Assembly (NCBI RefSeq): GCF_036237275.1
Contig: NZ_CP108352.1
Location: 620,001 to 684,000, forward strand
From: Streptomyces sp. NBC_01353
Lineage (GTDB): Bacteria > Actinomycetota > Actinomycetes > Streptomycetales > Streptomycetaceae
DNA: 64,000 nt
Direction: 5' to 3'
Shown piece by piece: positions 3,878-24,395 of this stretch. Below the pieces are notes generated by a model that did not search any database, had not been told where the DNA came from, and saw nothing but the letters and a program-made list of their open reading frames with translations. The stretch's first letter is position 1, and every line of letters begins with the position of its first letter. Made by a program: the position numbers and the translations under genes.

Positions 3878-4939
3878 ATGGTCACCCTCGCCCAGGTCGC
3901 CCGGCACGCCGGGGTGTCGGCCAGCACGGTGAGCTACGTCCTCAGCGGCAAGCGCTCGATCTCGACGGGCACCCGGCGCCGCGTCCTCGACAGCATCGAG
4001 CGTCTCGGCTACCACCCGCACGCCGGCGCCCGCGCCCTGGCCAGCAGCCGGTCGCGCATCATCGCCCTGATGGTGCCGTTGCGGACCGACATGTACGTCC
4101 CCGTGATGATGGAGATCGCCATCTCCGTCGCCACGACCGCCCGCGCCCACGGATACGACGTGCTGCTCCTGACCGGCGAGGAAGGGGTCGCGGCCGTACG
4201 GCGCGTCACGGGCAGCGGTCTCGCCGAGGCGTTGATCCTGATGGACGTCGAGCTCGAGGACGAGCGCCTCCCCCTGCTCCGTACCTGCGGGCAGCCCTCC
4301 GTGCTGGTCGGCCTCCCGGCCGATCCCACCGGACTCACCTGCGTCGACCTGGACTTCGCCGCGGGCGGCGCCCTGTGCGCCGAGCACCTCGCCGGCCTCG
4401 GCCATCGCGAGATCGCCGTCATCGGCGAGGCGCCCGGCGTCTACGAGCGGCACACCGGCTTCGCGGAGCGGACCCTCAGCGGACTGCGGGGCCGCGCGGA
4501 CCAGCTCGGTCTGCGCGTTCTCCACCGCCCCTGCGAGGGCAGCTACGAGGCGGTCCTCTCCACCCTCGGCCGCGTCTTCGACGAACGGCCGGACACCACC
4601 GCGCTCGTCGTGCAGAACGAAGCCGCGGTGGAGCCCCTCCTCGCCCTGCTGCGCCGCGACGGACGGGCAGTGCCGGAGGACGTCTCCGTCGTCGCGGTCT
4701 GCCCCGAGCAGGTCGCGGCGCAGGCCTCCGTACGTCTCACCTCGGTCGCCATCCCCGCGCAGGAGCTGGGACGGCAGGCGGTGGAGCGGCTCGTGGCGAA
4801 GCTCGGCGGTGGCGCCGAGGGCGACGACGATGTGGCACTCCTCGCGCCCGAGCTGACCGTGCGGGACAGCTCGGGCCCGGCGCCGACGAAAGCGCAGACG
4901 AAGGAGTCGGAGTCGGCGCGGTGGCTCAGCCGGCGCTGA
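3878..4939 (+). CDS. LacI-family transcriptional regulator (paralogue 1)
   Basis: 353 aa. The N-terminal LacI helix-turn-helix is clear (TLAQVARHAGVSASTVSYVL, with hinge helix ARALASSRS), followed by a periplasmic-binding-protein-like sensor domain (VPLRTDMYVPVMMEI, GYDVLLLTGEEG, VVQNEAAVEPLLALL). It aligns without obvious gaps to the regulator at 25616-26680, with an identical recognition helix. Two operator-like palindromes precede it. It faces the GH12 gene with a 14-nt overlap of the 3' ends. Likely represses the xyloglucan genes until an oligosaccharide or xylose-related ligand binds; the ligand is inferred only from context. Confidence 0.9.
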   Translation: MVTLAQVARHAGVSASTVSYVLSGKRSISTGTRRRVLDSIERLGYHPHAGARALASSRSRIIALMVPLRTDMYVPVMMEIAISVATTARAHGYDVLLLTGEEGVAAVRRVTGSGLAEALILMDVELEDERLPLLRTCGQPSVLVGLPADPTGLTCVDLDFAAGGALCAEHLAGLGHREIAVIGEAPGVYERHTGFAERTLSGLRGRADQLGLRVLHRPCEGSYEAVLSTLGRVFDERPDTTALVVQNEAAVEPLLALLRRDGRAVPEDVSVVAVCPEQVAAQASVRLTSVAIPAQELGRQAVERLVAKLGGGAEGDDDVALLAPELTVRDSSGPAPTKAQTKESESARWLSRR

Positions 4940-5657
4940 CGGTCAGGTTGTTCGCCCGGAAGTCGAGGCCGCCGGAGGAGGAGGTGATCTCGAAGCCGAA
5001 CTGCACGTCGCCGATCGTCTCGTCCCCCATCCACTGCTTGGTGTCCTTGATCCACTTGAGGATCGGGAGGATGTTCACCGTCCCCGCCGTGGAGTCCGAC
5101 GTCCGCAGGAACGAGAACACGTCGTGGGACGTGCCGTCGGCGTGCGGCACCTTCCCCTTGTACACGTCCCAGCTGTGGCCGCCCAGAGTGACGTTGCCCT
5201 GGTGGTCGCCGAGCGCGCCGACGGCGCCGTTGGCGTTGACCCAGAGCATGATCTCGTAGTCGTAGTCGGTGTCCCAGATGTCGTACGAGCTGTTGTACGC
5301 GCCCGCGGCGGGCACCGTCACGTCGTAGGTGCTGGTCAGCGTGGTGAAGGCACTGATGCGCCGGTTCACCGCCTTCTTGGCGTTGGGGTACGACTTGATG
5401 CCGCCGGTGTTCGGGTGGTTCGCCCAGACGCCCCAGTTCGTACCGGAGTTGGCCCAGGTGCACTGGGCGCCGGCGCCCGAGCCCCAGATGTTGTTGTAGA
5501 GCGTGTAGCCGCCCAGCGTGGTGTTGCCCCACTGGTCGCATGTGTTCCAGACGGCGGCCTCGGCGGGTGCGGCCGCCAGGCCGAGCGTCGCGCCGAAGGC
5601 GAGGACAGGGGCGAGCAGCGCGGTCCGCAGGCGGCCGAGAGTGGTGCGTCGTGCCAT
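4926..5657 (-). CDS. secreted GH12 endo-glucanase/xyloglucanase
   Basis: 243 aa with a Sec signal peptide (cleavage near APAEAA, residue 35). The mature GH12 jelly-roll begins WNTCDQWGNTTLGGYTLYNN. Catalytic residues are in place: nucleophile E135 in DYEIMLWVN and acid/base E223 in FGFEITSS. Unlike many Streptomyces GH12 enzymes it has no CBM2 or linker after the catalytic domain. GGAAGGACC precedes the ATG. It is the last gene of the minus-strand operon, 36 nt after the GH95 stop, so it probably attacks the beta-1,4-glucan backbone of xyloglucan outside the cell. Family certain; preference for xyloglucan over mixed-linkage glucan is inferred. Confidence 0.92.
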   Translation of the reverse strand: MARRTTLGRLRTALLAPVLAFGATLGLAAAPAEAAVWNTCDQWGNTTLGGYTLYNNIWGSGAGAQCTWANSGTNWGVWANHPNTGGIKSYPNAKKAVNRRISAFTTLTSTYDVTVPAAGAYNSSYDIWDTDYDYEIMLWVNANGAVGALGDHQGNVTLGGHSWDVYKGKVPHADGTSHDVFSFLRTSDSTAGTVNILPILKWIKDTKQWMGDETIGDVQFGFEITSSSGGLDFRANNLTVSAG

Positions 5658-5693
5658 GGTCGGTCCTTCCAGGGGTGGGGGGTCGGCCGCGTC

Positions 5694-7934
5694 TCACGGC
5701 GTGAGGACGCGGCTCTCGCCGGCGCGCAGATCGAGTGGGCGAGCGCCGGCGGGAGTCCTGAGGTCGATCGGTCCGGTACGGGTGGGACGGACGACGGCGG
5801 TGTACGTGTCCGGGCTCCAGGTGAGGTCGACAGTGGCGCCGAACCTCGTGCGGATGCCGAGCAGCCGGCCCGATGGGTACGCGTCGGGTGGCGCCGGCAG
5901 CAGCACGAGGCGGCCGGGAGTCGACTGCACGAGCATCTCGATCAGCAGCGCGGGCAGCGTGTGGGCGGCGTCGGCGTTGTAGACGTCGCGGTCCGGATAG
6001 TGCGTGCTCATGAGGGAGTCGTGGAAGTAGTCGCCCGTCAGGACCCGTCGGAGCGCCTCTGCCGCGCGGTCGGCGTCCCGCAGCCGCGCGGCGATCAGGG
6101 CCTGGTGCAGGTGTCCGTGAGCGGATTCGTTCTCGCTGCCGCGCAGTTCGAGCGCCCGAAGGGCCGCCTTCGCCAGGTCTGGCGTGTCGTACGGGTTGAT
6201 CTCCTCGTGCGGCCACACGGCGTACAGATGGCTGAGGTGGCGATGGTCGTAGCGGTCGTCGAGGCCGGGCCAGGCCCATTCGGCGAGCGCTCCGTCGGCG
6301 TTGATCCGGTACGGGGGCAGCCGGTCGGCGAGGGCGCGCCGCCGGTCGGCGTCGGCGGCGGCTTCGGTATCAGCGGCGGCACCGGCACCGTAGTCGGCCG
6401 CGGTCAGAAGGGCGTGGCGCGCCGCGGTGAGGTCCATGGTCGCGTTGATCGCTCCCCAGCCCCCGCCGACGGGCCGGTTCTCCGGTGAGTAGGAGGGGAC
6501 GACGACCAGCCGACCGTCGGGTCCGGTGCGGGTGAGGAAGTCCTCGTAGAACGCGGCCAGTTCGGCGAGGGCTGCGGCGGTCTCGGGATCGCGTGAGCCG
6601 TGCGTCTCGTCGTGGTCGACGAGCGGCTTCAGAAGCCAGTCGGCGCCCGCGGTCCACAGGTGGAGGGGGTACTCGCGGCTGAAGTGGTACGAGTGTCCCG
6701 AGACGCCATCGGTGTGGGCGGGCGCCACGATGCCTCGGGCGCCGAAGACGGCCCTGGCGTTGTCCCGCCAGTCGGCCAACTGGCCCTGGATCAGGCACGC
6801 ATGGGCCGCCGTCACCTCAGGAAGGTCGGCCGCGGCGGCAGAGGCCGTCTGCAGATTGAGGTTGGCGTCGTGGGTGAAGGCGCCGGACCAGGCGGTGTTC
6901 CAGTCGCCGGTCCACAGACCGGTGAGGCGGGGCGGCAGCATGCCGGAGGAGGACAGGAGGTGGTAGCGGCCGGCGGCGAAGAGCCGCTCCAGGAGGGCGG
7001 GGCTGCCGGTCCTGCGCAGGAGCGCGGAGCCGGACAGGGCGCGCTCGGCCGGGTCCGCGTCGAGGTCGAGCGTCACGCGCTCGTAGGCGGCGCGGTGTCG
7101 TTCGGTGTGGCGGGCGAGCAGACGCGCGTGGACCGCGTCGAGGTCGTCCGGCGAGGTCGGCTCCTCGGAGTCCCCGACCAGCAGTGTGCGCAGCGCTTCC
7201 GCCTCGGGGACCGTGTCCGGTTCGCCTTCATGGCGCCGTACCCGGGTCAGGATCAGAAGCCGCCGCGCGTCCTCGAAGTGGGCGCCCGCCGGGGAGAGGG
7301 AGGCCCGGCCGCCGGCGGCGACAGCGAGGGTGACGCCGGTGTACCCGAGAGTGTTGCCCGGGTAGCGGGCGCGCAGGGTGAGGAGGACGCCGCCCGGGGT
7401 GAGGACCGCGCTCCGGCCCACGGCGAGATCGTGGGGTGTGCCGGGAAGCCGGTGGTCCAGGGAGAGTTCGGCCGATCGGCCGGGGTCGGTGACGTACTGG
7501 ACGACGACGTCGTCGGCGCGGGAGACGAAGACCTCGCTGCGCGCCTTGCCCCGGGTCGCCGTCGCGACCCCGGTGGCGAAGTCGACGGATCGCCGGTAGC
7601 GGCCGTGGGTGTCGGCGGTCGCGCGGGCGAGGCGGGTCTGGAAGGCCGGGTGGAACGGGCGTACCCGGCGCAGCGGGCGTCCATCGGTGAAGCGTTCGGC
7701 CGCGGTGGTGTCGCCGGCGAGCAACCGGTCCTGGAGCCCCGCGAGTTCGGCGGCCAGGAGCGGCGGGCGGGTGTCCTCGTCCGGGTGGAGGGGGCGTACG
7801 AGGGTGTGATGGGTGACGATCACGCGGTCGTCGTCGGGATCGCCGAGGACCATGGCCCCGTGCCTGCCGTTGCCGGCCAGGAAGGCGTCCTCCCAGCGGG
7901 CGGCGCGGCTTCCCTCCCATGTCCCGTGGATCAC
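5694..7934 (-). CDS. GH95-like alpha-L-fucosidase/alpha-L-galactosidase
   Basis: 746 aa, starting at a GTG (7934) that overlaps the GH42 stop by 4 nt (GTGA). N-terminal GH95 signature WEDAFLAGNGRHGAMVLG; central LTGLWTGDWNTAWSG; VVPSYSPEN, which carries the glutamate expected as general acid; and DHRHLSHLYAVWPHEEI near residue 570. No signal peptide, so cytoplasmic. In characterised GH95 enzymes the asparagine pair lies in a segment like NxEMNYW; here that segment reads DANLNLQTAS, a marked divergence. In a xyloglucan locus the expected job is removing terminal alpha-1,2-fucose, or its galactose analogue, from imported oligosaccharides. Specificity is uncertain. Confidence 0.8.
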   Translation of the reverse strand: MIHGTWEGSRAARWEDAFLAGNGRHGAMVLGDPDDDRVIVTHHTLVRPLHPDEDTRPPLLAAELAGLQDRLLAGDTTAAERFTDGRPLRRVRPFHPAFQTRLARATADTHGRYRRSVDFATGVATATRGKARSEVFVSRADDVVVQYVTDPGRSAELSLDHRLPGTPHDLAVGRSAVLTPGGVLLTLRARYPGNTLGYTGVTLAVAAGGRASLSPAGAHFEDARRLLILTRVRRHEGEPDTVPEAEALRTLLVGDSEEPTSPDDLDAVHARLLARHTERHRAAYERVTLDLDADPAERALSGSALLRRTGSPALLERLFAAGRYHLLSSSGMLPPRLTGLWTGDWNTAWSGAFTHDANLNLQTASAAAADLPEVTAAHACLIQGQLADWRDNARAVFGARGIVAPAHTDGVSGHSYHFSREYPLHLWTAGADWLLKPLVDHDETHGSRDPETAAALAELAAFYEDFLTRTGPDGRLVVVPSYSPENRPVGGGWGAINATMDLTAARHALLTAADYGAGAAADTEAAADADRRRALADRLPPYRINADGALAEWAWPGLDDRYDHRHLSHLYAVWPHEEINPYDTPDLAKAALRALELRGSENESAHGHLHQALIAARLRDADRAAEALRRVLTGDYFHDSLMSTHYPDRDVYNADAAHTLPALLIEMLVQSTPGRLVLLPAPPDAYPSGRLLGIRTRFGATVDLTWSPDTYTAVVRPTRTGPIDLRTPAGARPLDLRAGESRVLTP

Positions 7935-9907
7935 GTCGCCTCCTTGAGCACGGCCGCTCCGTACCGGCCGAGCCGCAGCGAGCTCTCGACGGTCGCGCCG
8001 GTGAGCAGATCGTGGTGGCGGCCGGGGACGGTGACGACGGTGTGCTCCCGACGGTGGTTGAGGACGAAGAGGAGCGGTCCTCTGCGCACCGCTTCGACGC
8101 CGGTCGGGAGGTCGTCGAGGACGGGGCGGACACCCGCGTCGCGGGCGGCCTCGCCGAGCAGGTCCCGCAGCGCGGCGGGCTCGGGAAGCGTCGAGACGTA
8201 CCAGGCGGCGCCGTTACGGAGCACGGCGGGCAGTCCGTCGAGCTCGCCGCCGCGGTAGCCGGCGACGGTGTGTGCGCCGGGGGCGGCCTGGATCTCCTCG
8301 GACCAGAGGGTGCCGTGGAACTCCCCGCAGTCGGTTCGCTCGCCTGCGTCCAGCGGCCACCATTCGTGGATGAGGTCGATGCCGAAGAGCTCGCGGAGCC
8401 GGGGGTCCATGCCGCCGGGGCGTACGCGGTCGTCCGCGTCGGCGACGCCGGTGAGGAAGCCGCAGACCAGGGTGCCGCCCTCGCGCACATAGGCCAGGAG
8501 GTTGTCGATCGACGTGTCGTCGAGGAGGTAGAGGTGGGGGACGACGACGAGCCGGTACGGGGTGAGGTCGGCGGCCGGGTGGGCGAAGGCGGCCGTGAGG
8601 TGCCCCTCCCACAGGGCGCGGTGCCAGGAGCGGACGATCTCGGGGTACTGCAGCAGGGAGGAGGGCCTGCCCTCCTGCTCTCCGGCCCACCAGGAGTGCC
8701 AGTCGTGCAGGATCGCCACGTCGGCGTGGGCGCGGGCTCCGGTCATCTGCGGTCCCAGGAGAGCGAGTTCGGCACCGATCTCCTTGATCTCGCGGAAGGT
8801 ACGGCCCCGCTCCCCCGCGTGGCCGACCATGCCGGAGTGGAACTTCTCCGCTCCCTGGCGGGACTGGCGCCACTGGAAGTAGCAGACGGCGTCGGCGCCG
8901 TGGGCGACGGCCTGGAGGGACCAGAGCCGGTTGAGCCCGTACGGCTTGGGATGGTTGACGCCTCGCCAGTTGACCGGGCCGGCCGCCTGTTCCATGAGCA
9001 TCCACGGTCCGCCGCCCGCCTGGGAGCGGGTCATGTCGCCGATCATCGCGTTGTACTGGCCGCCGAGCGGGTCCTTCGGATCGGGGTAGATGTCGATCGA
9101 GACCAGGTCCTCCTCCGCGGCCCACCGCCAGGCGTCCTGACCGGACCAGAAGGGCATGAAGTTGGTGGTGACCGGGATGTGCGGGGTGTGGCGGCGCACG
9201 ATGTCCCGCTCGGTGCGGTAGCACTCCAGGAGCATGTCGGAGGTGAAGCGCTTGAAGTCGAGGACGTGGGTGGGGTTCTTCATGTAGTGGGCGCGGCGGG
9301 GCGGCAGAATCTCGTCCCAGGAGCCGTAGCCCTGGCTCCAGAAGGCGGTGCCCCAGGCGGTGTTGAGCGCGTCGAGGGTTCCGTATCGGTCCTGGAGCCA
9401 GCGGCGGAAGGTGGTGGCGGCCTCGTCGCCCCAGTCGGGGGTGCAGTACTCGTTGTTGATGTGCCACATGGTGAGTGCGGGGTGCGTGCCGTAGCGGGCT
9501 GCGAGGTCCTCGGTGAGGGCGGCGGCGTAGCGTCGGTAGACGGCGCTGGAGTGGGAGAAGTGCTGGCGCGAGCCCCACCACTCCGTCTGCCCGTTCTCGT
9601 CGCGCGGCAGCGTCTCGGGGTGGAGGCGTCCCATCCAGGGCGGGGGCGAGGAGGTGGGGGTGGCGAGGACGACTCCGATGCCGTGGTCGTGCATGAGGTC
9701 CATGAGCCGGTCGAGCCAGCCGAACTCCCGGGCGCCCGGCCGTGGTTCGATCTTCGACCAGGAGAAGACGCCGAGGGTGACGGAGGTGACTCCGGCCTCT
9801 TTCATGAGGCGGACGTCGTCCTTCCAGGTCTCCTCGGGCCACTGTTCGGGGTTGTAGTCGCCGCCGAAGAGGATCCGGCCGCGGGTGGCGTCGTCGAGCG
9901 TCGGCAT
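7931..9907 (-). CDS. GH42 beta-galactosidase
   Basis: 658 aa. The start ATG at 9907 shares its A with the TGA of GH74 (TGATG), so translation is probably coupled. GH42 hallmarks: GGDYNPEQWPEETW (15-28), acid/base E153 in MWHINNEYCTPDW, nucleophile E306 in PWMLMEQAAGPVNW, then the trimerisation and C-terminal domains (FHSGMVGHAGERGRTFREI). Cytoplasmic, no signal. In this operon it would remove beta-galactose from the galactosyl-xylosyl side chains of imported xyloglucan oligosaccharides. Full family length. Confidence 0.93.
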   Translation of the reverse strand: MPTLDDATRGRILFGGDYNPEQWPEETWKDDVRLMKEAGVTSVTLGVFSWSKIEPRPGAREFGWLDRLMDLMHDHGIGVVLATPTSSPPPWMGRLHPETLPRDENGQTEWWGSRQHFSHSSAVYRRYAAALTEDLAARYGTHPALTMWHINNEYCTPDWGDEAATTFRRWLQDRYGTLDALNTAWGTAFWSQGYGSWDEILPPRRAHYMKNPTHVLDFKRFTSDMLLECYRTERDIVRRHTPHIPVTTNFMPFWSGQDAWRWAAEEDLVSIDIYPDPKDPLGGQYNAMIGDMTRSQAGGGPWMLMEQAAGPVNWRGVNHPKPYGLNRLWSLQAVAHGADAVCYFQWRQSRQGAEKFHSGMVGHAGERGRTFREIKEIGAELALLGPQMTGARAHADVAILHDWHSWWAGEQEGRPSSLLQYPEIVRSWHRALWEGHLTAAFAHPAADLTPYRLVVVPHLYLLDDTSIDNLLAYVREGGTLVCGFLTGVADADDRVRPGGMDPRLRELFGIDLIHEWWPLDAGERTDCGEFHGTLWSEEIQAAPGAHTVAGYRGGELDGLPAVLRNGAAWYVSTLPEPAALRDLLGEAARDAGVRPVLDDLPTGVEAVRRGPLLFVLNHRREHTVVTVPGRHHDLLTGATVESSLRLGRYGAAVLKEAT

Positions 9908-12147: not shown

Positions 12148-12208
12148 GGCGAACCTCACGCTGGACGGGGAACGGTGGGGGAAGGCGGCGCGGGAAGGAC
12201 GCGGGGGC

Positions 12209-13171
12209 TCACCCCTTGACGGCGCCGGTGAGCATCCCCTTCTTGAAGTGCTTCTGGACGAAGGGGGAGAACACGGCGACGGGGAGCAGCGCGAGCACCA
12301 TGACCGCCATCTGCACGGCGAGCCCGGAGAGCGGGCCGGCCTTCACGGCCTGCCCGAGGCCGACCGGGATCTCCTGCTTCTGGACCAGCTGGATGAGCAC
12401 GTTCTGGAGCGGCATCATGTTCTGGTCGCTGAGGTAGATCGACGCGTTGAACCAGGCACTCCAATAGCCGACGGCGTAGAAGAGCGTGATGACGGCGATG
12501 ACCGCACGGGAGAGCGGCATCACGATCTGCCACAGGATGCGCAGATCGCCGGCGCCGTCGATCCGGGCGCTGTCGATGAGTTCGGGCGAGATCCCCATGA
12601 AGAAGCCGCGCAGGACGAGGATGTTGAAGACGCTGACCGCGCTCGGCAGGATCAGCGCGAGATAGGTGTCGGTCAGACCGAGCGTCTGCACCAGCAGATA
12701 GGTGGGGATGAGCCCGGCGCCGAAGAACATGGTGGCCATCAGCGTGAGCAGGATCGCGCGGTGCCCGACCGATCCCGGCCGGGACAGCCCGTACGCGCAG
12801 AGGATGGAGACGGCCATCGAGAAGACGGTTCCGGCGACCGTCACCCCGACGCTGACGAGGGCGGCGCGGGTGACCTGGCCTCCGCTGAGCAGCTCCTGGT
12901 AGGCGATGAAGGTGACATCCCGGGGCACGATCACCAGCCCGCCCGCCTCCGTGATCGTCTTCTTCGAGGAGAGGCTGGTGACGATCACGATCCACAGCGG
13001 GACCAGCACGGCGAGGCAGGCGAGGCCGAGTACGGCTCCTTTGGCGGTGAGTCCGGCTCGGGTGGGCGGCTCCTCCCAGACGGGGCGGTCCGGCGGGGCC
13101 CAGCGCGAGCGCCCCGGCTCCGCAGCCGTGCTCAGGACCGTCCGTCCCGGGCCGGGTGTCGTGGTGGTCAT
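12209..13171 (-). CDS. carbohydrate ABC transporter permease (CUT1, second permease)
   Basis: 320 aa from the ATG at 13171, which overlaps the upstream permease stop by 4 nt (ATGA). Six membrane segments are visible, the first at about residues 50-68 (GLACLAVLVPLWIVIVT). The EAA loop that contacts the ATPase is present as SPELIDSARIDGAGDLRILW. MalG/LplC-type. The protein ends HFKKGMLTGAVKG, typical of this subfamily. It forms the membrane channel with the 13168-14226 protein. The transporter has no ATPase gene in the window. Confidence 0.93.
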   Translation of the reverse strand: MTTTTPGPGRTVLSTAAEPGRSRWAPPDRPVWEEPPTRAGLTAKGAVLGLACLAVLVPLWIVIVTSLSSKKTITEAGGLVIVPRDVTFIAYQELLSGGQVTRAALVSVGVTVAGTVFSMAVSILCAYGLSRPGSVGHRAILLTLMATMFFGAGLIPTYLLVQTLGLTDTYLALILPSAVSVFNILVLRGFFMGISPELIDSARIDGAGDLRILWQIVMPLSRAVIAVITLFYAVGYWSAWFNASIYLSDQNMMPLQNVLIQLVQKQEIPVGLGQAVKAGPLSGLAVQMAVMVLALLPVAVFSPFVQKHFKKGMLTGAVKG

Positions 13172-14226: not shown

Positions 14227-14228
14227 GG

Positions 14229-16047: not shown

Positions 16048-16073
16048 CGAAGCCTGCCGAAGCCCGTCGAAGC
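16048..16073. promoter_or_regulatory. three helically phased CGAAGC half-sites beside the operator
   Basis: CGAAGC occurs at 16048, 16058 and 16068 and again at 16079 as the left half of the full palindrome, giving spacings of 10, 10 and 11 bp. They lie in the predicted 5' untranslated region of the solute-binding protein transcript. This could be a one-sided array of half-operators for the same LacI protein. Confidence 0.4.
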
Positions 16074-16077
16074 CTTG

Positions 16078-16091
16078 TCGAAGCGCTTCGA
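16078..16091. promoter_or_regulatory. LacI-family operator of the transporter/GH operon
   Basis: TCGAAGCGCTTCGA, identical to the palindrome at 3748-3761. Relative to the minus-strand promoter at 16102-16130 it begins a few bases after the expected transcription start, where a bound repressor would block elongation or open-complex formation. Confidence 0.75.
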
Positions 16092-16101
16092 TGTTGCTGC
16101 G

Positions 16102-16130
16102 AGGTTAAGCGAACGTCTCAGACCCGGCAA
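16102..16130 (-). promoter_or_regulatory. candidate promoter of the xyloglucan operon
   Basis: On the reverse strand TTGCCG (16125-16130) and TAACCT (16102-16107) are separated by 17 nt, a reasonable sigma-HrdB-type promoter pointing to the solute-binding protein gene. The operator follows at once. Confidence 0.45.
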
Positions 16131-16256
16131 GAGTCGGGGTCAAGATTCACGTGCGGCGGAGAGCAGAGCCGGGAGCGACGTAACTCCCCTTGCTTCAAGG
16201 GAAAGGGGATCATTGAGCACCCTGAAGTCTTGACTTGGCGAGGGATCGAGCCGAGC

Positions 16257-16274
16257 ATTCGAAGCGCTTCGAAT
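16257..16274. promoter_or_regulatory. LacI-family operator of the GH3 gene (perfect 18-bp palindrome)
   Basis: ATTCGAAGCGCTTCGAAT is perfectly self-complementary and extends the 14-bp consensus by two base pairs on each side. It ends 14 nt before the GTG of GH3 and abuts the AAGGG ribosome site; a TTGACT -35-like hexamer lies at 16230-16235. Together with 16078-16091 it would let one repressor control both divergent transcripts of this 383-nt gap. Confidence 0.75.
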
Positions 16275-16288
16275 GAAGGGATCCGCAC

Positions 16289-19117
16289 GTGACCGTACAA
16301 CGGCACATCGACGACCTCCTCGCGCGGCTGACGCCCGATGAGCGGATCGCGATGCTGCACCAGTTCGCGCCCGCCGTGGACCGTCTGGGCCTCGCAGCCT
16401 TCCGCACCGGGCAGGAGGCGCTGCACGGCGTCGCGTGGATGGGACCCGCCACCGTCTTCCCCCAGTCCGTCGGCCTGGGCGCGACCTGGAACCCGGAACT
16501 CGTCCGCCGGATCGGTGAGGCCGTCTCCCGGGAGGCGCGCGCGATGCGCGCCAAGGACGAACGCGTCGGGCTCAACGTCTGGGCGCCGACCGTCAATCTG
16601 CTGCGCAACCCCCTGTGGGGCAGGGGCGAGGAGGGCTACTCCGAGGACCCGGGCCTCACGTCCGCGGTCGCCGTCGCGTATACCCGTGGTCTGCGCGGCG
16701 ACCATCCCACGTACTGGCGCACCGCCCCCGTGCTCAAGCACTGGCTCGCGCACAACAACGAGACCGACCGGGCCACTTCGTCCGCCTCGGTCCGGCCGCG
16801 GGTGCTGCACGAATACGATCTGCGGGCCTTCCGCGGCGCCGTCGAGGCGGGCGCCGTGGCCGGCGTGATGCCCGCCTACAACCTGGTCAACGGCCGGCCG
16901 AACCATCTCTCCCCCTTTCTGCGTGAGCACCTGCGCACCTGGACCGAACAGGAGCTCCTCGTCTGTTCCGACGCGGGCGCACCGACCAACCTGGTCGAGC
17001 ACGAGCACTACTTCGCCACCCACGAGGAGGCCACGGCGGCCGCGCTGCGCGCCGGCGTCGACTCCTTCACCGATCACGGCACGGATGCCGCGCCGATCGT
17101 CGCCCGCCTCCGCGGGGCGCTGGAGCGGGGACTCCTCGACCAGGACGACATCGACACGGCGGTGCGCAGGCAGCTTGCCGTACGCGCCGCACTCGGCGAG
17201 TTCGAGCCGGAGCTCGACCCCGACGTCGCGGAGGGCGCGTTCGACACGCCCGAGCACCGGGCCCTGGCCCTCGAAGCGGCCGAACAGGCCGTCGTGCTCC
17301 TGAAGAACGAGCCGCAGAACGGCAGCGGCCCGCTGCTTCCGCTCCCCGCCGACGCGCGGATCGCCGTGGTCGGTCCGCTCGCCGACGAGTGCAAGCTCGA
17401 CTGGTACAGCGGCACGCTCCTGCACCGCTCCACCCCGCTGGACGGTGTGCGCGAGCGCTACGGCTCCGACCGGGTGCGCCACGCCGACGGCTCCGACCGG
17501 GTGACGCTGCGGACCAGCACGGGCGCGCGGCTGCGGGTGCCGGAGAGCGCCGCGCCCGACGAGGCACGGGGCACCGAGGGCGCCCTGGACCCGGCGCTGC
17601 TCACCGGCCGCACCGACCTGCGGCCGCTGACCACGGACGTGGAGGGGTCGGTGTTCGCGCTGACCGACTGGGGCGGCGGTGTGCTCACGCTGCGGGCGCC
17701 CGACGGGCGGTATCTGTCCGTCGCGGAGGACGGTTTCGTCCGGGCCTCGGCCGATCAGCCGGGGGGCTGGGTCGTCCAGGAGACGTTCCGCTGGATGGAA
17801 CACGGCGAAGGACACCTCCTGGTGCACATCGGGACGGGCGGCTACGTGTCTGTCGCCGCCGACGGCGTGAAGGTTGCCGCCGACCGCGCATCCGCCGAGA
17901 TCCTCACCGTCGAGGTCGTCGAGCACGGCGAACGCGCGGTCGCCCGGGCCGCGGCGGACGCGGACGTCGTCCTCGTCGTGGCGGGCAACGACCCGCACAT
18001 CAACGGACGCGAGACCGAGGACCGTACGACGCTGGCGCTGCCCGAGCAGCAGGACCGGCTGTGGCGCGCGGCCGTGGCGGCGAACCCCCGCACCGCGCTC
18101 GTGCTCGTCTCCTCATACCCGTACGCCGTTGCCGAGGCCGCCCAGGCGCTGCCCGCGCTGCTGTGGACTGCGCACGGCGGTCAGGGCGCCGGCACCGCGC
18201 TGACCCGGGTGCTGGCCGGCGACGTCTCCCCTGCGGGCCGCCTCCCCCAGACGTGGTACGCCTCCGACACGGACCTGTCCGACCTGCTGGACTACGACGT
18301 CATCGGCGGCCGCCAGACGTATCTGTACTTCGACGGCGTCCCGCTGTTCCCCTTCGGACACGGCCTGTCGTACACAGCGTTCGGATACGCGGATGCGGCC
18401 GCGCGCACCGACGGGGAGCTCGTACGCGTCTCCTGCACGGTCACGAACACCGGCGCCTTCGCGTCCGACGAGGTGGCCCAGGTGTACGTACGGGCCGTGG
18501 CCCCGTCGGTGCCGCGCCCGCACCGGGAGCTCGTCGCGCACCGCCGCCTCCACCTCACACCCGGCGCGTCCGAGGCGCTGTCGTTCGACGTTCCGCTCTC
18601 CGCGCTGGGCTTCTGGGATGTGGCGCACGGGCGGTGGTCGGTCGAGCCGGGGACGTACGAGATCCTCGTCGGCGGGTCTTCGGCGGAGCTCCGGGCCTCC
18701 GCGCTTCTGGAGGTCCAAGGGGTACGGTCCGGCCCGCGACCGGTCAGGGAGCTGGGCCTCGACGCGGTCGCGTACGACGAGCAGAGCGGCACGGAGATCG
18801 TCGACCGGACCAAGGTGTCCGGGGACTCCGTGACCCCGGCCGACCCCGGCAAGGGGGGCGAACTCCTCTTCCGGCGCTGCGACTTCGGGGACGGGGCGAC
18901 CGAGGTGGCGATCGAGGCGGCAGGCGAGGGCCTGGTGAAGCTGGCCCTGGGGACGGGCGGGGATCGCGTTCCGCTTGCCGTGATCGAGGTGGCGGCGACG
19001 GGCGGACCGTACGCCTACGTCACCGTGGGCGCGGAGATCCTGGCGCGCGGGGTCGCCGATCTCCACATCGAGCTGCGCGGGACGGTTCGTCTCGCGCACG
19101 TCGCCTTCTCCGGCTGA
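16289..19117 (+). CDS. GH3 beta-glucosidase with inserted beta-trefoil-like module
   Basis: 942 aa from a GTG preceded by AAGGG. The GH3 N-terminal barrel shows LKHWLAHNNE (149-158) and the nucleophile D228 in LLVCSDAGAPTNL. The alpha/beta sandwich contains NGRETEDRTTLALP with the candidate acid/base, and a fibronectin-III-like domain (GHGLSYTAFGY onward) follows. Between residues about 405 and 545, where other GH3 enzymes carry PA14, lies a fascin/beta-trefoil-like insert with repeated GRYLSV and GGYVSV turns. A further roughly 130-residue C-terminal extension is present. No signal peptide: it probably releases glucose from de-branched core oligosaccharides in the cytoplasm. Beta-xylosidase activity cannot be excluded. 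Confidence 0.88.
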   Translation: MTVQRHIDDLLARLTPDERIAMLHQFAPAVDRLGLAAFRTGQEALHGVAWMGPATVFPQSVGLGATWNPELVRRIGEAVSREARAMRAKDERVGLNVWAPTVNLLRNPLWGRGEEGYSEDPGLTSAVAVAYTRGLRGDHPTYWRTAPVLKHWLAHNNETDRATSSASVRPRVLHEYDLRAFRGAVEAGAVAGVMPAYNLVNGRPNHLSPFLREHLRTWTEQELLVCSDAGAPTNLVEHEHYFATHEEATAAALRAGVDSFTDHGTDAAPIVARLRGALERGLLDQDDIDTAVRRQLAVRAALGEFEPELDPDVAEGAFDTPEHRALALEAAEQAVVLLKNEPQNGSGPLLPLPADARIAVVGPLADECKLDWYSGTLLHRSTPLDGVRERYGSDRVRHADGSDRVTLRTSTGARLRVPESAAPDEARGTEGALDPALLTGRTDLRPLTTDVEGSVFALTDWGGGVLTLRAPDGRYLSVAEDGFVRASADQPGGWVVQETFRWMEHGEGHLLVHIGTGGYVSVAADGVKVAADRASAEILTVEVVEHGERAVARAAADADVVLVVAGNDPHINGRETEDRTTLALPEQQDRLWRAAVAANPRTALVLVSSYPYAVAEAAQALPALLWTAHGGQGAGTALTRVLAGDVSPAGRLPQTWYASDTDLSDLLDYDVIGGRQTYLYFDGVPLFPFGHGLSYTAFGYADAAARTDGELVRVSCTVTNTGAFASDEVAQVYVRAVAPSVPRPHRELVAHRRLHLTPGASEALSFDVPLSALGFWDVAHGRWSVEPGTYEILVGGSSAELRASALLEVQGVRSGPRPVRELGLDAVAYDEQSGTEIVDRTKVSGDSVTPADPGKGGELLFRRCDFGDGATEVAIEAAGEGLVKLALGTGGDRVPLAVIEVAATGGPYAYVTVGAEILARGVADLHIELRGTVRLAHVAFSG

Positions 19118-19141
19118 GGGTCCGGACGAAGCGCGACCGAC

Positions 19142-19176
19142 AGGGCCCGGCACCGATCTCTTCGGTGCCGGGCCCT
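19142..19176. terminator. strong bidirectional terminator between GH3 and GH31
   Basis: AGGGCCCGGCACCGA (19142-19156) and TCGGTGCCGGGCCCT (19162-19176) form a perfect 15-bp stem with a 5-nt loop, extendable by a GACA/TGTC pairing with one bulge. It lies 24 nt after the GH3 stop and about 70 nt after the GH31 stop on the other strand. The rest of 19177-19245 holds only a short direct repeat (GGTCTTCGTCGTG twice). Confidence 0.88.
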
Positions 19177-19245
19177 TGTCGTGCCGCCGGTCTTCGTCGT
19201 GTCGGCGGTCTTCGTCGTGCCCGGAGCCCGTTTCGGCGCAGGACG

Positions 19246-21510
19246 TCAGTGCGGCGCGGGAACGGCGACTTCCGTACGCCCCTCGGCCGAGCCACCTCCG
19301 ACCAGCCGCAGCCGGAAGGGGCGGTCGGTGTCGTCGGTGGTCGCCCGGACCTCTCCGCCCGTGCGGACCACGCGATAGACGGCACCCGTCTCCCCGCGCG
19401 TGTCGGGCACGGTGACGGTCCGGTCCACCGTACCCGGGGTCACGAGGAGCGTGAGGTCCTGGAGCCAGTCGCCGTCCGGGCGCTGCTCGTCGGCGCCCAT
19501 CGGGAGCACCGTGCCGGGGCGTACGTAGAGGGGCAGGCTGTCGAAGCCGTGGACCTCGCGGCGCCAGACCGGTCCGGAGACCGTCTCGCCGGTGAGCAGG
19601 TGGGTCCACTCCCCCGCGGGCAGATAGACCTCGACCTCGCCGTCGGCCGAGAAGACGGGCGCGACGAGCAGATCGGGTCCGAGCATGTACTGCCGGTCGA
19701 GGGTCCGGCACGCCGGGTCCTCGGGGAATTCGAGCAGCATGGGCCTCATGACGGGCACGCCCGTGGCGCGTGCCTCGACGGCGGAGCCGTAGAGGTAGGG
19801 CATCAACCGGTGCTTCAGTTCGGTGAACCGCCGGGCCACGTCGACCGCTTCCTCGCCGAACTCCCACGGCACCCGGTAGGACTCGTTGCCGTGCAGCCGG
19901 CTGTGCGAGGAGAGCAGGCCGAAGGCGAGCCAGCGCTTGAAGACGGCGGGGTCGGGCGTCCCCTCGAAACCGCCGATGTCATGGCTCCAGAAGCCGAAGC
20001 CGCTCAGGGAGAGCGACAGACCACCGCGCAGCGACTCGGCCATGGCCTCGAAGGATGCCCAGCAGTCGCCGCCCCAGTGGACCGGGAACTGCTGGCCGCC
20101 GGCCGTCGCGGAGCGGGCGAAGAGGACCGCCTCGCCCATGCCCCGCTCCTTCAGAAGAAGTTCGAAGACGGTCTGGTTGTAGAGGTGGGTGTAGTAGTTG
20201 TGCATCCGCTCCGGGTCGGAGCCGTCGTGCCAGACGACGTCGGTGGGGACGCGCTCGCCGAAGTCCGTCTTGAAGCAGTCGACGCCCTGGGCGAGGAGCG
20301 GCCGCAGCCGGTTCTGGAACCAGGTACGGGCCTCCGGGTTGGTGAAGTCGACCAGGGCCATGCCGGGCTGCCACAGGTCCCACTGCCAGACGTCCCCGTT
20401 CGGCCGCTTGACCAGGTAGTCGCCGGCCAGTCCCTCGGCGAACAGCGTCGACTTCTGCGCGATGTACGGGTTGATCCACATGCTGATCTTCAGCCCCCGC
20501 TCCTTGAGCCGGGCCAGCATCCCGGCCGGATCGGGGAAGGTCTCGGGGTCCCACTGGAAGTCCGACCACTGGTACTCCCGCATCCAGAAACAGTCGAAGT
20601 GGAAGACGGAGAGCGGGATGCCGCGCTCGGCCATGCCGTCGACGAACGCGGTGACGGTCGCCTCGTCGTAGGGGGTGGTGAAGGACGTGGTGAGCCAGAG
20701 GCCGAACGACCAGGCGGGCGGGAGCGCGGGGCGGCCGGTGAGGGCGGTGTAGCGGGTGAGGACGTCCTTGGGCGTCGGGCCCGCGACGACGTAGTACTCC
20801 AGCGTCTGGTCCTCGACGCTGAACTGCACCTGGCCGACGGACTCCGAGCCGACCTCGAAGGAGACCTTGCCGGGGTGGTTGACGAAGACGCCGTAGCCGC
20901 GCGAGGAGAGGTAGAACGGGATGTTCTTGTAGGCCTGTTCGCTGCTCGTGCCGCCGTCGGCCTGCCAGATGTCCACGGTCTGGCCGTTCTTGACGAACGG
21001 GGTGAAGCGCTCACCGAGACCGTAGACGTTCTCACCGACGCCCAGGGAGAGTTGGGCCGCCATGTGGTGCGCGCCTTCGGCCGTGGTGACGAAGGCGGTT
21101 CCCTTGGGGCCCGCCGTGGTCAGGGGTCGGCCGTGCGCGTCCAGGAACTCCAGGGCCCAGGGGGCCGCGCGGTCCAGGCGCAGGGTGAGGGGGCCGGTGG
21201 CCAGTTCGGTGACGGTTCCCTCGCGGCGCACGGTGGCGGCGGAGGGCGTGTCGCCCGGCAGGACGAAGTCCGGTCCGTGGTGCGCCTTTCCGGCGTGATG
21301 GGTCAGCCTCACACCGATCACACCCTCCGCGGGCGAGAAGCATTCCACGGTGATCAGCGCCGAGTTGAGCGTGTCGCCGCGCGACTCGATGCGCTTCACG
21401 GAGGCGTACGCGGTGAAGTGGTCGGCGCTCACGTGCAGATCGCGCACTTCGGTGGCGTAGGAGGCGCGAACGCCCTCTCGCATGAGCCAGAAGCCGTTGG
21501 TGAACTTCAT
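19246..21510 (-). CDS. GH31 alpha-xylosidase (YicI type)
   Basis: 754 aa. It resembles E. coli YicI closely, with matching residue numbers: nucleophile D416 in CFKTDFGERVPTDV and acid/base D482 in HWGGDCWASFEAMAESLRGG. The residues linked to xylose specificity in YicI are all kept: F277, C307, F308, W345, W380 and K414. Sequence supports an intracellular enzyme removing the non-reducing-end alpha-1,6-xylose from xyloglucan oligosaccharides. It follows xylulokinase by 65 nt on the same strand, so released xylose and its kinase are probably co-expressed. Transcription ends at the 19142-19176 hairpin. Confidence 0.95.
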   Translation of the reverse strand: MKFTNGFWLMREGVRASYATEVRDLHVSADHFTAYASVKRIESRGDTLNSALITVECFSPAEGVIGVRLTHHAGKAHHGPDFVLPGDTPSAATVRREGTVTELATGPLTLRLDRAAPWALEFLDAHGRPLTTAGPKGTAFVTTAEGAHHMAAQLSLGVGENVYGLGERFTPFVKNGQTVDIWQADGGTSSEQAYKNIPFYLSSRGYGVFVNHPGKVSFEVGSESVGQVQFSVEDQTLEYYVVAGPTPKDVLTRYTALTGRPALPPAWSFGLWLTTSFTTPYDEATVTAFVDGMAERGIPLSVFHFDCFWMREYQWSDFQWDPETFPDPAGMLARLKERGLKISMWINPYIAQKSTLFAEGLAGDYLVKRPNGDVWQWDLWQPGMALVDFTNPEARTWFQNRLRPLLAQGVDCFKTDFGERVPTDVVWHDGSDPERMHNYYTHLYNQTVFELLLKERGMGEAVLFARSATAGGQQFPVHWGGDCWASFEAMAESLRGGLSLSLSGFGFWSHDIGGFEGTPDPAVFKRWLAFGLLSSHSRLHGNESYRVPWEFGEEAVDVARRFTELKHRLMPYLYGSAVEARATGVPVMRPMLLEFPEDPACRTLDRQYMLGPDLLVAPVFSADGEVEVYLPAGEWTHLLTGETVSGPVWRREVHGFDSLPLYVRPGTVLPMGADEQRPDGDWLQDLTLLVTPGTVDRTVTVPDTRGETGAVYRVVRTGGEVRATTDDTDRPFRLRLVGGGSAEGRTEVAVPAPH

Positions 21511-21575
21511 CGTGGTCCTCGTCGCTCTGGTGCGGGGCGGTGAGTGGGACGCCAGGGGGTCGGTCTCGGGTCACG

Positions 21576-23054
21576 TCAGGACAGCAGGGCGGGGGTGGCG
21601 CGTTCGAGCGTCCCGGCGATGCGGTCCCAGGTCTCGTGATCCTTGGCCGCCGCCGGGTGCAGCTCGCCGTGGCCGGTGCCCCAGGCGGTGGCCACGGCGA
21701 CCGGATCCTCGCCGGAGGCAGCCGCCGCGGCGAGGGCGGCGGCGCCGAGGGCGACGAGTTCGGTCGCGAACGGGACGACCAGGGGCCGTCCGGAGAGCCG
21801 ACGTACGGTCTCCGTCCAGGCCCTGCCCCGGGCACCGCCACCGATCAGGCGCAGCGGACGGTCCCGGACCGCAGGGTCGGCGGGGTCGAGCCCGCAGGCG
21901 GCGAGGAGTTCGTCGAGGGCGCGCAGGACGGTGAAGGCGGCGCCCTCGTAGGCCGCGCCGAGGATCGCGCGCGGGGTGGTGGTGTGGCGCAGCCCGGTGA
22001 GGAGTCCGGCGGCGTGCGGCAGGTCGGGGGTGCGTTCGCCGTCGAGGTACGGCAGGACGACGAGTCCGTCGCCGGGGACGGCGTCCTCGCGGTCGAGGCC
22101 GAGGATGTCGGCGAACCTGTCCACGGCGAGGGTGCAGTTGAGGGTGCATCCGAGCGGGAGGAAGGTGCCGTCGGCGGCGGCGAAGCCGGCGAGCCCGGGG
22201 GCGGCGGGACGGGTGCGGGTGGCGGCGAAGACGGTGCCGGAGGTGCCGAGGCTGACGACGGGGTGGTCCAGGTGTCCGGCGCCGCCGAGGCCGAGTCCGA
22301 CGGCGGCGGCCATGTTGTCGCCGGTTCCGGCGGCGACGGCGACGCTGTCCGGAAGGCCGAGCATCGCCGCGGCGGACGCGGTGAGGGTGCCGACGCGGGT
22401 GGCGCCGCTCGGGGCGACGACGGGGAGCGACTCCGGTGCGAGGCCGAGGAGTTGGAGGAGCGCGGGGTCGTAGGCGCCGTCGGCGGTGGAGTACCAGCAG
22501 GTTCCGGAGGCGTCCCCGGGGTCGGTGGCGGCGACGCCGCTGAGCCGCTCGGTGAGGAAGTCGTGCGGCAGGCGGACCGCTGCCGTCGCCGCGGCGGTGG
22601 CGGGCTCGTGCTCGCACAGCCACTGCCACTTGGCGGCTGTCATGGAGGCGACGGGCACCGAGCCGGCCCGCGCCAGCCAGGCGTCGGGGCCGCCGAGCGC
22701 GTCGGTGAGGTCGGCGGCCTGCGGCGCGGAGCGGGTGTCGTTCCAGAGCAGTGCGGGGCGCAGGGGGCGGCCGGCGGGGTCGAGGACGACCAGGCCGTGC
22801 TGCTGTCCGGCGACCGCGATCCCGGTGACGGCGGAGGCGGCCACCCCGGCTTCCTTCAGTCCCCGGGCGACGGCTTCTCCGAGGGCGGACCACCACTGCT
22901 CGGGGTCGCTCTCGCGCGCCCCGCCGGTTCCGGTGACGGTGTGCCGGGCGCGGCCGACCGCGAGCAGGGCGCCGGTGGCGGCATCGACCACGGCTGCCTT
23001 GGTGGACTGCGTGGAGCTGTCCACACCGATCACCACGGGGTGTGTCGCCGGCAT
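21576..23054 (-). CDS. xylB: xylulokinase
   Basis: 492 aa. FGGY-family kinase: N-terminal VVIGVDSSTQSTKAAVVD (phosphate 1), GIAVAGQQHGLV with the QH pair of xylulokinases, MTAAKWQWL, LGTSGTVFA (phosphate 2 region) and the adenosine motif LRLIGGGARGRAWTETV. I use the ATG at 23054 (AAAGG 8 nt upstream); a GTG at 23063 with GAGG is an alternative. Phosphorylates D-xylulose made by the divergent xylose isomerase. A dyad at 23106-23130 lies between the two genes. Confidence 0.95.
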   Translation of the reverse strand: MPATHPVVIGVDSSTQSTKAAVVDAATGALLAVGRARHTVTGTGGARESDPEQWWSALGEAVARGLKEAGVAASAVTGIAVAGQQHGLVVLDPAGRPLRPALLWNDTRSAPQAADLTDALGGPDAWLARAGSVPVASMTAAKWQWLCEHEPATAAATAAVRLPHDFLTERLSGVAATDPGDASGTCWYSTADGAYDPALLQLLGLAPESLPVVAPSGATRVGTLTASAAAMLGLPDSVAVAAGTGDNMAAAVGLGLGGAGHLDHPVVSLGTSGTVFAATRTRPAAPGLAGFAAADGTFLPLGCTLNCTLAVDRFADILGLDREDAVPGDGLVVLPYLDGERTPDLPHAAGLLTGLRHTTTPRAILGAAYEGAAFTVLRALDELLAACGLDPADPAVRDRPLRLIGGGARGRAWTETVRRLSGRPLVVPFATELVALGAAALAAAAASGEDPVAVATAWGTGHGELHPAAAKDHETWDRIAGTLERATPALLS

Positions 23055-23105
23055 GGCGTTCACCTTTCCTCGACTCGGCCTCTGGCGCGCTCTCGCGCGT
23101 TGCCG

Positions 23106-23130
23106 TATTAGTTATCTCAGAAAACAAATA
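23106..23130. promoter_or_regulatory. candidate xylose-repressor operator between xylB and xylA
   Basis: A 25-bp dyad centred on C23118, with 10 of 12 base pairs self-complementary; the left arm reads TATTAGTTATCT. It is strikingly AT-rich for this genome and sits in the 147-bp gap between the divergent xylose genes. Xylose genes in Gram-positives are often controlled by ROK-family XylR binding AT-rich dyads. No ROK regulator is in the window. It is unrelated to the GAAGCGCTTC operators. Confidence 0.6.
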
Positions 23131-23201
23131 CCCGGGCCAGACCTGGCCGCGTATCAGTTCGCCGTGTTCGCCGCGGCCGAGCAGCTAAAGAGGGACAGAG
23201 C

Positions 23202-24395
23202 ATGGCGGAACGCTTCACCCCCACCCCCGGAGGCCGGTTCACCCCCACCCCCGAGGACCGGTTCACCTTCGGCCTGTGGACCGTCGGCTGGCAGGGCCGC
23301 GACCCCTTCGGCGACGCCACCCGCCCCGCGCTCGACCCGGTCGAGTCGGTCGAGCGGCTCGCCGCGCTCGGTGCGTACGGCGTCACGTTCCACGACGACG
23401 ACCTGATCCCCTTCGGCGCCTCGGAGACCGAGCGCGAAGGTGCGGTCAAGCGCTTCCGGGCCGCGCTGGAGAGCACCGGCCTGAAGGTGCCGATGGCCAC
23501 CACGAACCTCTTCACGCACCCGGTGTTCAAGGACGGCGGCTTCACCGCCAACGACCGCGACGTACGCCGTTTCGCGCTCCGCAAGACGATCCGGAACATC
23601 GACCTGGCCGTCGAGCTCGGCGCCACGACCTATGTCGCCTGGGGCGGCCGGGAGGGCGCCGAGTCGGGCGCGGCGAAGGACGTGCGAGTGGCGCTGGACC
23701 GCATGAAGGAGGCCTTCGACCTGCTCGGCCAGTACGTCACCGAGCAAGGCTACGACCTGCGGTTCGCGATCGAGCCCAAGCCGAACGAGCCGCGCGGCGA
23801 CATCCTGCTGCCGACGATCGGGCACGCGCTCGCGTTCATCGAGCGCCTGGAGCGGCCGGAGCTGGTCGGCGTCAATCCGGAGACGGGCCACGAGCAGATG
23901 GCCGGGCTGAACTTCCCGCACGGCATCGCCCAGGCCCTGTGGGCCGGCAAGCTCTTCCACATCGACCTCAACGGCCAGTCCGGCATCAAGTACGACCAGG
24001 ACTTCCGCTTCGGGGCCGGCGACCTGCGCCAGGCGTTCTGGCTGGTGGACCTCCTGGAGAGCGCCGGGTACGAGGGGCCGCGGCACTTCGACTTCAAGCC
24101 GGTGCGCACCGACGGCTTCGACGGGGTCTGGGAGTCCGCGAAGAACTGTATGCGCAACTACCTGATCCTGAAGGAGCGTGCGGCTGCCTTCCGCGCCGAC
24201 CCGGAGGTCCAGGAAGCGCTGGTGGCCTCCCGGCTTCCGGAGCTGGCGACCCCCACGGCCGCCGACGGTCTCGCGGGGCTGCTCGCCGACCCCAGCGCGT
24301 ACGAGTCCTTCGACCCGGCCGCGGCGGCCGGTCGTTCGATGGCCTTCGAGCGTCTGGACCAGCTGGCTCTGGAGCACCTTCTCGCGGTCCGCTGA
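23202..24395 (+). CDS. xylA: xylose isomerase
   Basis: 397 aa. Class I (short) xylose isomerase: [21 protein letters not shown], catalytic histidine in [28 protein letters not shown] and [16 protein letters not shown] (metal ligands), and HIDLNGQ. Streptomyces enzymes normally begin with a single PTPEDRF element; here the N-terminus has a tandem copy ([18 protein letters not shown]), making the protein about 9 residues longer. Converts D-xylose to D-xylulose in the cytoplasm. Divergent from xylB. Confidence 0.96.

Follow-up and report, generated by a model that had tools for sequence, protein, structure and literature searches.

A locus in the genome of Streptomyces sp. NBC_01353 most likely encodes a xyloglucan utilisation system that would cut the polysaccharide outside the cell, import the fragments and strip them inside, under the control of its own LacI-family repressor, lacI1. 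We put the probability of this reading at roughly 0.87. The locus lies in a 64,000-nucleotide stretch of contig NZ_CP108352.1 (the window; C1:620001-684000) in a genome of 8,565,674 bases on two contigs, and this reading is in keeping with the families of its genes, with their active-site residues, with the conserved order of the genes and with a private operator. In the proposed scheme, secreted glycoside hydrolases of families GH74 and GH12 would cut xyloglucan into oligosaccharides, which a cluster-G-like lipoprotein (the substrate-binding protein, SBP) would capture and two permeases would import with the aid of an ATPase encoded elsewhere. Inside the cell, GH95 would remove fucose, GH42 galactose and GH31 xylose, and GH3 would probably remove a backbone or terminal sugar. 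lacI1 would bind the palindrome TCGAAGCGCTTCGA at the starts of the transporter operon, the GH3 gene and its own gene, holding the locus off until an imported xyloglucan product released it. The substrate, the ligand, repression, the ATPase partner and a DNA loop discussed below are what we infer. The features of the locus are as follows.

3748..3761, no strand: exact operator TCGAAGCGCTTCGA upstream of lacI1 (genome scan)
3847..3860, no strand: weaker operator with 2 mismatches, beside the lacI1 start (mismatch scan)
3878..4939, plus strand: lacI1, LacI-family candidate repressor (Pfam LacI/Peripla_BP_3)
4926..5657, minus strand: GH12, secreted according to a signal peptide read by eye; nearest solved relative the xyloglucan hydrolase NopAA (Pfam)
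5694..7934, minus strand: GH95, likely alpha-L-fucosidase, no signal peptide seen; optional module (Pfam)
7931..9907, minus strand: GH42 beta-galactosidase, no signal peptide seen (Pfam)
9907..12159, minus strand: GH74 xyloglucanase, twin-arginine-like signal by eye (solved GH74 matches)
12209..13171, minus strand: permC, ATP-binding cassette (ABC) permease resembling UgpE/MalG (NCBIfam matches below curated cut-offs)
13168..14226, minus strand: permB, ABC permease resembling UgpA/MalF (Pfam, NCBIfam)
14229..15905, minus strand: SBP, substrate-binding lipoprotein with predicted cluster-G-like fold (lipobox Cys34, AlphaFold2, Foldseek)
16078..16091, no strand: exact operator, SBP side (genome scan)
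16259..16272, no strand: exact operator, GH3 side, 181 bp from the SBP-side copy (genome scan)
16289..19117, plus strand: GH3 with beta-xylosidase-like catalytic domain, C-terminal-domain insertion and CBM6-like tail, no signal peptide seen (Pfam)
19246..21510, minus strand: GH31 alpha-xylosidase, YicI type (Pfam, YicI match, NCBIfam)

Genes were called from open reading frames (ORFs), third-position GC and Pfam matches, and signal peptides were judged by eye. An earlier note on this DNA had named GH12, GH95, GH42, GH31, GH3, kinase, isomerase and LacI families, and Pfam matches at or near the proposed positions bore these out. Both of the permeases it described are present, the second in a corrected reading frame: ORF 12156-12995 was rejected as being in the wrong frame, and the gene reads at 12209-13171. 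Seven consecutive minus-strand genes (SBP, permB, permC, GH74, GH42, GH95 and GH12, in that order) form what had been called a single coupled operon. The permB/permC, GH74/GH42 and GH42/GH95 junctions overlap and SBP and permB are 2 nt apart, but permC and GH74 are separated by a gap of 49 nt, and GH95 and GH12 by one of 36 nt, instead of overlapping. The GH3 gene is divergent from the SBP gene and lacI1 is convergent with GH12, while beyond GH3 lie GH31, a xylulokinase-like gene, a xylose-isomerase-like gene and a second LacI-family gene, lacI2.

The two enzymes with signal peptides, GH74 and GH12, have solved relatives that act on xyloglucan. Pfam gave only BNR/sortilin-type matches for GH74, and its best solved match was 4lgn (E 2.4e-145; named 'Cellulose-binding, family II'), followed by chains named xyloglucan hydrolase and xyloglucanase (E 2.1e-140 and 4.5e-140). 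The match to the family was full-length, and the catalytic Asp positions were conserved in 77/77 and 78/78 orthologues. GH12 was closest to NopAA (143.8 bits), for which xyloglucan hydrolase activity is named in the title of PMC7303141, and both catalytic Glu residues were conserved in 100/100. These counts come from orthologous segments of at least 60% identity (at least 45% for SBP), excluding loci L080, L081 and L087 for GH3, L080, L081 and L086 for GH42, L080 and L081 for GH12, L077 for GH74, and the GH95 paralogue locus L070.

By eye, no signal peptide was seen on GH95, GH42, GH3 or GH31. GH95 matches solved GH95 enzymes and is the sole GH95 in the genome, in which no GH29 was found; by sequence it is likely an alpha-L-fucosidase, with Glu552 and Asp655 conserved in 101/101 orthologues. 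The first position of the Asn pair of the family is Asp in the window copy and in 73 of these orthologues and Asn in 28. This was the only exception, all other counted active-site positions being invariant, with the catalytic residues assigned from the enzyme families. GH42 matches solved beta-galactosidases (catalytic Glu conserved in 121/121 and 120/120), and the nearest solved relative of GH31 is E. coli YicI (E 2.2e-282); GH31 also exceeds the NCBIfam alpha-xylosidase cut-off (1218 bits vs 606) and carries the catalytic KTDFGE motif. Many of the loci L032-L060 have a second type of GH31, approximately 30% identical to the YicI type, between lacI1 and GH12, and in other loci the YicI-type GH31 follows GH3. 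A YicI-type gene (71-81% identical) was found in 14/14 genomes of fetched loci checked, in or beside the locus in six (G052, G059, G155, G166, G171 and G179) and approximately 12 kb past the fetched stretch in G049.

No gene for an ATPase turned up in the locus itself. One UgpC-type ATPase above cut-off is encoded in the genome (C1:4081970), a candidate shared, MsiK-type partner of the locus permeases. The SBP has 558 amino acids, and its lipobox Cys34 is conserved in 137/137 sequences; it had no Pfam match at 1e-3, its sequence matches to solved sugar-binding proteins were weak, a paralogue of 32% identity occurs elsewhere in the genome, and a search of viral contigs found no relative. An AlphaFold2 model (44 sequences; pLDDT 71.3, pTM 0.72) was compared with solved structures using Foldseek, which placed AlgQ1/AlgQ2 at ranks 1-8 and 10, 5GX8 at rank 9 and FusA at rank 19. 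The same proteins (AlgQ1, AlgQ2, 5GX8 and FusA) are fold relatives of Athe_2052 of Anaerocellum bescii, which binds the oligosaccharide XXXG at 14 nM (PMC12710961). Cluster G proteins are characterised by a three-linker hinge, class II sheet topology and a calcium site, the last of which is absent in Athe_2052. The SBP shows the cluster G combination of a mass of approximately 60 kDa with AlgQ1/AlgQ2/FusA as nearest folds, and its model predicts a cluster-G-like fold, in line with a putative binder of xyloglucan oligosaccharides.

Regulation of the locus was approached through its operators. The 8.57-Mb genome contains three exact copies of the palindrome TCGAAGCGCTTCGA, all of them in this locus, against about 0.02 expected from base composition alone, and the window holds five sites with at most two mismatches against 0.30 expected. 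Weak matches across the genome were rejected as meaningful, there being 81 forward sites with at most two mismatches and 65 for the reversed control. The SBP gene is preceded by two exact copies within 600 bp in 136 of 138 loci, and within 700 bp in 137 of a 138 that includes the window. By eye, each copy lies immediately downstream of a promoter-like hexamer pair, the two pairs standing back to back (GTCTTGACAC-type toward GH3, CTTGTG/TTAACC-type toward the SBP gene), as for a repressor blocking the start site. Upstream of lacI1, two sites with at most two mismatches were present in 63 of the 73 loci (the window among them) in which the lacI1 start could be read, and four recognition-helix positions of lacI1 are invariant in 72/72 orthologues examined. 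We take lacI1 to be the putative repressor of the locus, acting at TCGAAGCGCTTCGA, an operator not found in print in the literature searched. A recurring block, GGAGGAATCTTGGAA, was also seen upstream of the SBP promoter in several SBP-GH3 intergenic regions, e.g. in L032 and L038.

To examine the prevalence of the locus, 199 Streptomyces genomes were searched. GH95 matches at E <=1e-20, paralogues included, occurred in 126 genomes; GH95 orthologues, hand-picked from the list at >=58% identity, occurred in 76 including our own, and the SBP at >=48% identity in 98. The SBP was present in 75 of the 76 genomes with a GH95 orthologue, and in 23 genomes without this GH95, a co-occurrence whose Fisher p takes no account of kinship. 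Loci were taken from 39 of the 75 other GH95-orthologue genomes; in some the GH3 gene runs off the stretch, and one, L036, is a split locus. lacI1, GH42, each permease and the SBP were found in 38 of these, and GH12 in 34, GH3 in 32 and GH74 in 26 as clean ORFs. Among 20 loci with the SBP but without GH95 (from 18 of the 23 genomes, plus two second copies), a full GH42 was present in 15 and an adjacent divergent GH3 in 18; because these loci keep GH42 and GH3, the fucose step appears to be an accessory to a core that deals with galactose and xylose. The comparison of gene order across Streptomyces genomes proposed in the earlier note shows the same order recurring in dozens of them, so that the composition of the locus is not a matter of chance.

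Gene content was also counted in a pooled set of 138 SBP loci (L031-L069 minus L036, and L071-L170) with identity limits of 48-60% (25% for GH31). The counts are lower bounds, many loci ending early, and loci known by handle and by name share species: permC and permB were each present in at least 137, GH3 in at least 135, GH42 in at least 123, GH12 in at least 101, GH95 in at least 100, lacI1 in at least 83, GH74 in at least 79 and GH31 in at least 59. GH74, GH12 and GH95, all named as parts of the system in the earlier note, are thus present here but optional across loci. The best 80 of 508 related SBP loci in named genomes all belong to Streptomyces. In other genera of the family, GH42, both permeases, the SBP and GH3 were found together in 8/8 loci with an SBP of 48-52% identity, six having two exact operators before the SBP gene and two having one exact and one imperfect copy; where the SBP was 34-38% identical, the core was found in 5/7 loci and the exact operator pair in 0/7.

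Several observations weigh against the xyloglucan reading. The GH3 catalytic domain scores best as a beta-xylosidase, and no exact operator precedes GH31 in the window; the YicI-type GH31 is on another contig or distant from the locus in 7 of the 14 genomes checked. A second GH74, 49% identical to the locus copy, is encoded elsewhere in the same genome (C1:2281659-2283695). Of 117 loci that are 19 kb or longer, 18 have neither GH74 nor GH12 at the identity limits used, so that extracellular cleavage does not accompany the locus in every case. The SBP model is of moderate quality (pLDDT 71, TM ~0.6, rmsd (root-mean-square deviation) ~6), and the solved xyloglucan SBP 9PMY (Athe_2052) is absent among the 50 Foldseek matches listed. 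In another actinobacterium, moreover, CelR is predicted to target a xyloglucanase (PMC3377646), and xyloglucanases can therefore belong to other regulons. Taken claim by claim, the SBP, the secreted GH74 and GH12 and the cytoplasmic side-chain enzymes of the xyloglucan reading stand, whereas membership of XylA/XylB is not supported and the removal of glucose by GH3 is less certain than stated.

The glucose step is where an alternative has most force. The earlier note assigned removal of glucose to GH3; the enzyme is present, but backbone glucosidase is only a candidate role for it, because its catalytic domain is beta-xylosidase-like and the whole protein gives a mixed picture. The N-terminal catalytic domain matched solved beta-xylosidases best (112.7 bits), ahead of the best chain not named xylosidase (91.5), BoGH3B (87) and isoprimeverose-producing enzymes (65). 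The top three NCBIfam models are for xylosidases or xylosidase/arabinosidases, all below cut-off, and the Glu of the EALHG motif, a position at which beta-glucosidases carry Asp, is conserved in 133/133 orthologues. GH3 may accordingly be a beta-xylosidase or broad xylosidase/arabinosidase acting on other side chains or on xylan fragments, another enzyme removing the backbone glucose; judged by sequence this is a real possibility, though we would wager modestly against it. Over its full length, the protein matches 8va7 (an unnamed GH3; 256.8 bits), EmGH1 (228.5) and the beta-glucosidase 8j9f (222.4) better than any beta-xylosidase (216.4 for the highest-scoring one). GH3 is also among the most constant partners (135 of the 138 loci) and sits at the operator pair, which fits a backbone step. 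In addition, Glu3A, the GH3 of Ruminiclostridium cellulolyticum, is an atypical glucosidase specific for xyloglucan oligosaccharides that is weak on cellobiose and cleaves XXXG only after an alpha-xylosidase has acted (PMC4780118); since Glu3A is itself atypical, odd GH3 enzymes fit the backbone role. The GH3 here also carries an insertion of approximately 150 residues inside its C-terminal domain (residues ~400-550), with no Pfam match at 1e-3.

The spacing of the two operators suggests an addition to the xyloglucan reading, namely that dimers of the repressor sitting on one side of the helix interact across both sites, in a loop or other cooperative complex, and shut both divergent promoters. 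Operator-operator distances cluster at 159-160, 170-171, 181-183, 192-194 and 202-206 bp, with outliers at 100, 109, 126, 147, 168-169, 172-173, 186-187 and 223 bp. Phasing was tested on an SBP tree of 133 sequences by taking independent pairs differing by more than 2 bp and counting changes within 2 bp of a multiple of the period P, against a null of 5/P; a null of 4/P (23/27 at period 11) was rejected as too lenient. At period 11, 26 of 32 changes were near multiples (p 3.6e-5 vs 5/11), whereas the control distances from operator to SBP start (27/53, p 0.25) and to GH3 start (12/22, p 0.26) were not in phase; at period 10.5 the figures were 24/32 (p 0.0015), 21/53 and 13/22, respectively. 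These steps of approximately 11 bp, unlike the two control distances, suggest cooperative, perhaps looping, LacI repression. However, periods of 10.5, 10.8 and 11.0 were tested and others scanned, none being fixed in advance, and the control distances use extrapolated start codons. In three loci from one other genus of the family (L176-L178) the two operators are spaced by 155 bp, which does not match the phase of the Streptomyces series, and the pair of sites at the lacI1 promoter was in phase in 6/8 changes (p 0.09, n=8). By eye, no tetramer-forming tail is evident in lacI1, and back-to-back promoters may be phased for another reason. On balance we rate cooperative repression as close to an even bet, leaning slightly against. 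The stronger composite proposal, a dedicated system in which a single-locus LacI protein couples the two divergent promoters through phased, looped operators and in which GH3 is a new kind of exo-enzyme for xyloglucan oligosaccharides, derived from a beta-xylosidase type of active site, seems to us unlikely as a whole.

The genes beyond GH31 and the adjoining cellulase group bear on the limits of the locus.

21576..23063, minus strand: xylB-like FGGY kinase, a neighbour outside the conserved core (Pfam)
23202..24395, plus strand: xylose-isomerase-like gene, a neighbour outside the conserved core (Pfam)
25616..26683, minus strand: lacI2, 71% identical paralogue of lacI1 (Pfam)
29834..29847, no strand: CebR-type box TGGGAGCGCTCCCA before the GH48 cellulase (motif from PMC4898821)

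XylA and XylB had been counted as part of the locus and turn out to be neighbours only. Both occur in 1/138 pooled loci (L091), many of which stop a few kb past GH3, and xylA/xylB are absent from the G015 and G004 stretches read beyond GH31; they were rejected as core members on these grounds. Both LacI-family genes noted earlier are confirmed, but membership of lacI2 in the locus was not borne out. lacI2 has the same recognition-helix residues as lacI1 and a half-matching site, GACAAGCGCTTCGA, upstream at 26716; because these residues are identical, the two proteins could be competitors for similar sites. Upstream of the locus, at 912-2678, lies a gene for a family 4 pectate lyase, which adds to the plant-wall theme.

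The cellulase group (26853-33298; GH48-CBM2, GH5-CBM2 and GH6-CBM2) raises the question of whether the locus is one for using beta-glucans in general, or cellulose, the xyloglucan enzymes being passengers. GH12 and GH74 families do include enzymes active on other beta-glucans, and three cellulases and a CebR box lie next door. Yet this box is the single window site with 0-1 mismatch to the CebR motif, and it precedes GH48, outside the xyloglucan locus. Since GH48 has a CebR box instead of TCGAAGCGCTTCGA, the neighbouring cellulase genes are likely a separate regulon. GH42, GH31 and GH95 would have no evident use on an unbranched glucan, and the SBP and GH95 co-occur; we consider general beta-glucan use very improbable. 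A degenerate site of the xyloglucan type, TCGAAGCCATTCGA, with two mismatches, is present at 29889 in the cellulase group.

The Bacteroides xyloglucan utilisation loci (XyGUL) and the Xanthomonas xyloglucan cluster deploy the same bond-specific enzyme families, with outer-membrane import through SusC/SusD or TonB systems. No SusC/SusD was found among the Pfam matches of 18 ORFs scanned between 912 and 29918, an ABC transporter being present instead, and unlike in those systems the GH31 here is nearest to E. coli YicI. BoGH3B (5jp0) was among the GH3 matches and BoGH31A (5jou) among the GH31 matches, and we take 7kmq, 7kn8 and 7kmp to be Xanthomonas xyloglucan enzymes. Closer parallels exist in Gram-positive bacteria, and the locus is best read as a streptomycete counterpart of the xyloglucan-oligosaccharide systems of R. 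cellulolyticum and A. bescii. The R. cellulolyticum cluster Ccel_2451-2458 has cytoplasmic GH42, GH31 and GH3 enzymes and a binding protein with two permeases but no ATPase gene, and imports intact oligosaccharides (PMC4780118), as is proposed here; the same combination of an SBP and two permeases without an ATPase gene, beside GH42, GH31 and GH3, was found in the Streptomyces locus. Regulation in R. cellulolyticum is by a two-component system and its xyloglucanases are cellulosomal (PMC4780118), whereas the Streptomyces locus has GH74, GH12 and GH95 in the transporter operon and probable LacI control with paired operators. Likewise, A. bescii Athe_2052-2054 comprises a large cluster G SBP and two CUT1 permeases with no local ATPase and a GH31 nearby, while GH74 (CelF) and GH42 are encoded elsewhere in the genome and a putative fucosidase lies 'not far' away; the available text of PMC12710961 does not mention a LacI operator pair. 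The CebR regulon resembles the present one in its LacI-type repressor and 14-bp palindrome with the same AGCGCT centre, but differs in the outer bases (TGGGAGCGCTCCCA) and in covering many genes per genome (PMC4898821), compared with three exact sites at one locus here.

The earlier note's statement that Gram-positive counterparts are little described therefore holds in part: the R. cellulolyticum and A. bescii systems have been worked out, while no streptomycete xyloglucan uptake locus was found in the literature searched, which did not extend to subscription papers. Similar clusters from 'more distantly related' organisms are depicted in Figure 12b of PMC4780118, and a streptomycete may be among them; the legend gives no species names, and the available text does not contain the word 'Streptomyces'. 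GH95, GH42 and GH12 genes appear in the CAZyme table of PMC6998099, and four of six soil Streptomyces isolates grew on tamarind xyloglucan in a study that counted GH29, GH31_3, GH74 and GH95 as xyloglucan families (PMC11475409). Import-then-digest xyloglucan loci of Gram-positive bacteria are thus already known (PMC4780118, PMC12710961), and the operator switch is what is new here.

lacI1 and TCGAAGCGCTTCGA constitute a tightly defined candidate repressor-operator pair, and the natural series of operator spacings suits a direct test of cooperative repression. Streptomyces play a major part in the decomposition of plant material in soil, some strains growing on xyloglucan (PMC11475409), and the locus, whose SBP is found in about half of the Streptomyces sampled (98/199), is a candidate genetic marker for a xyloglucan diet.

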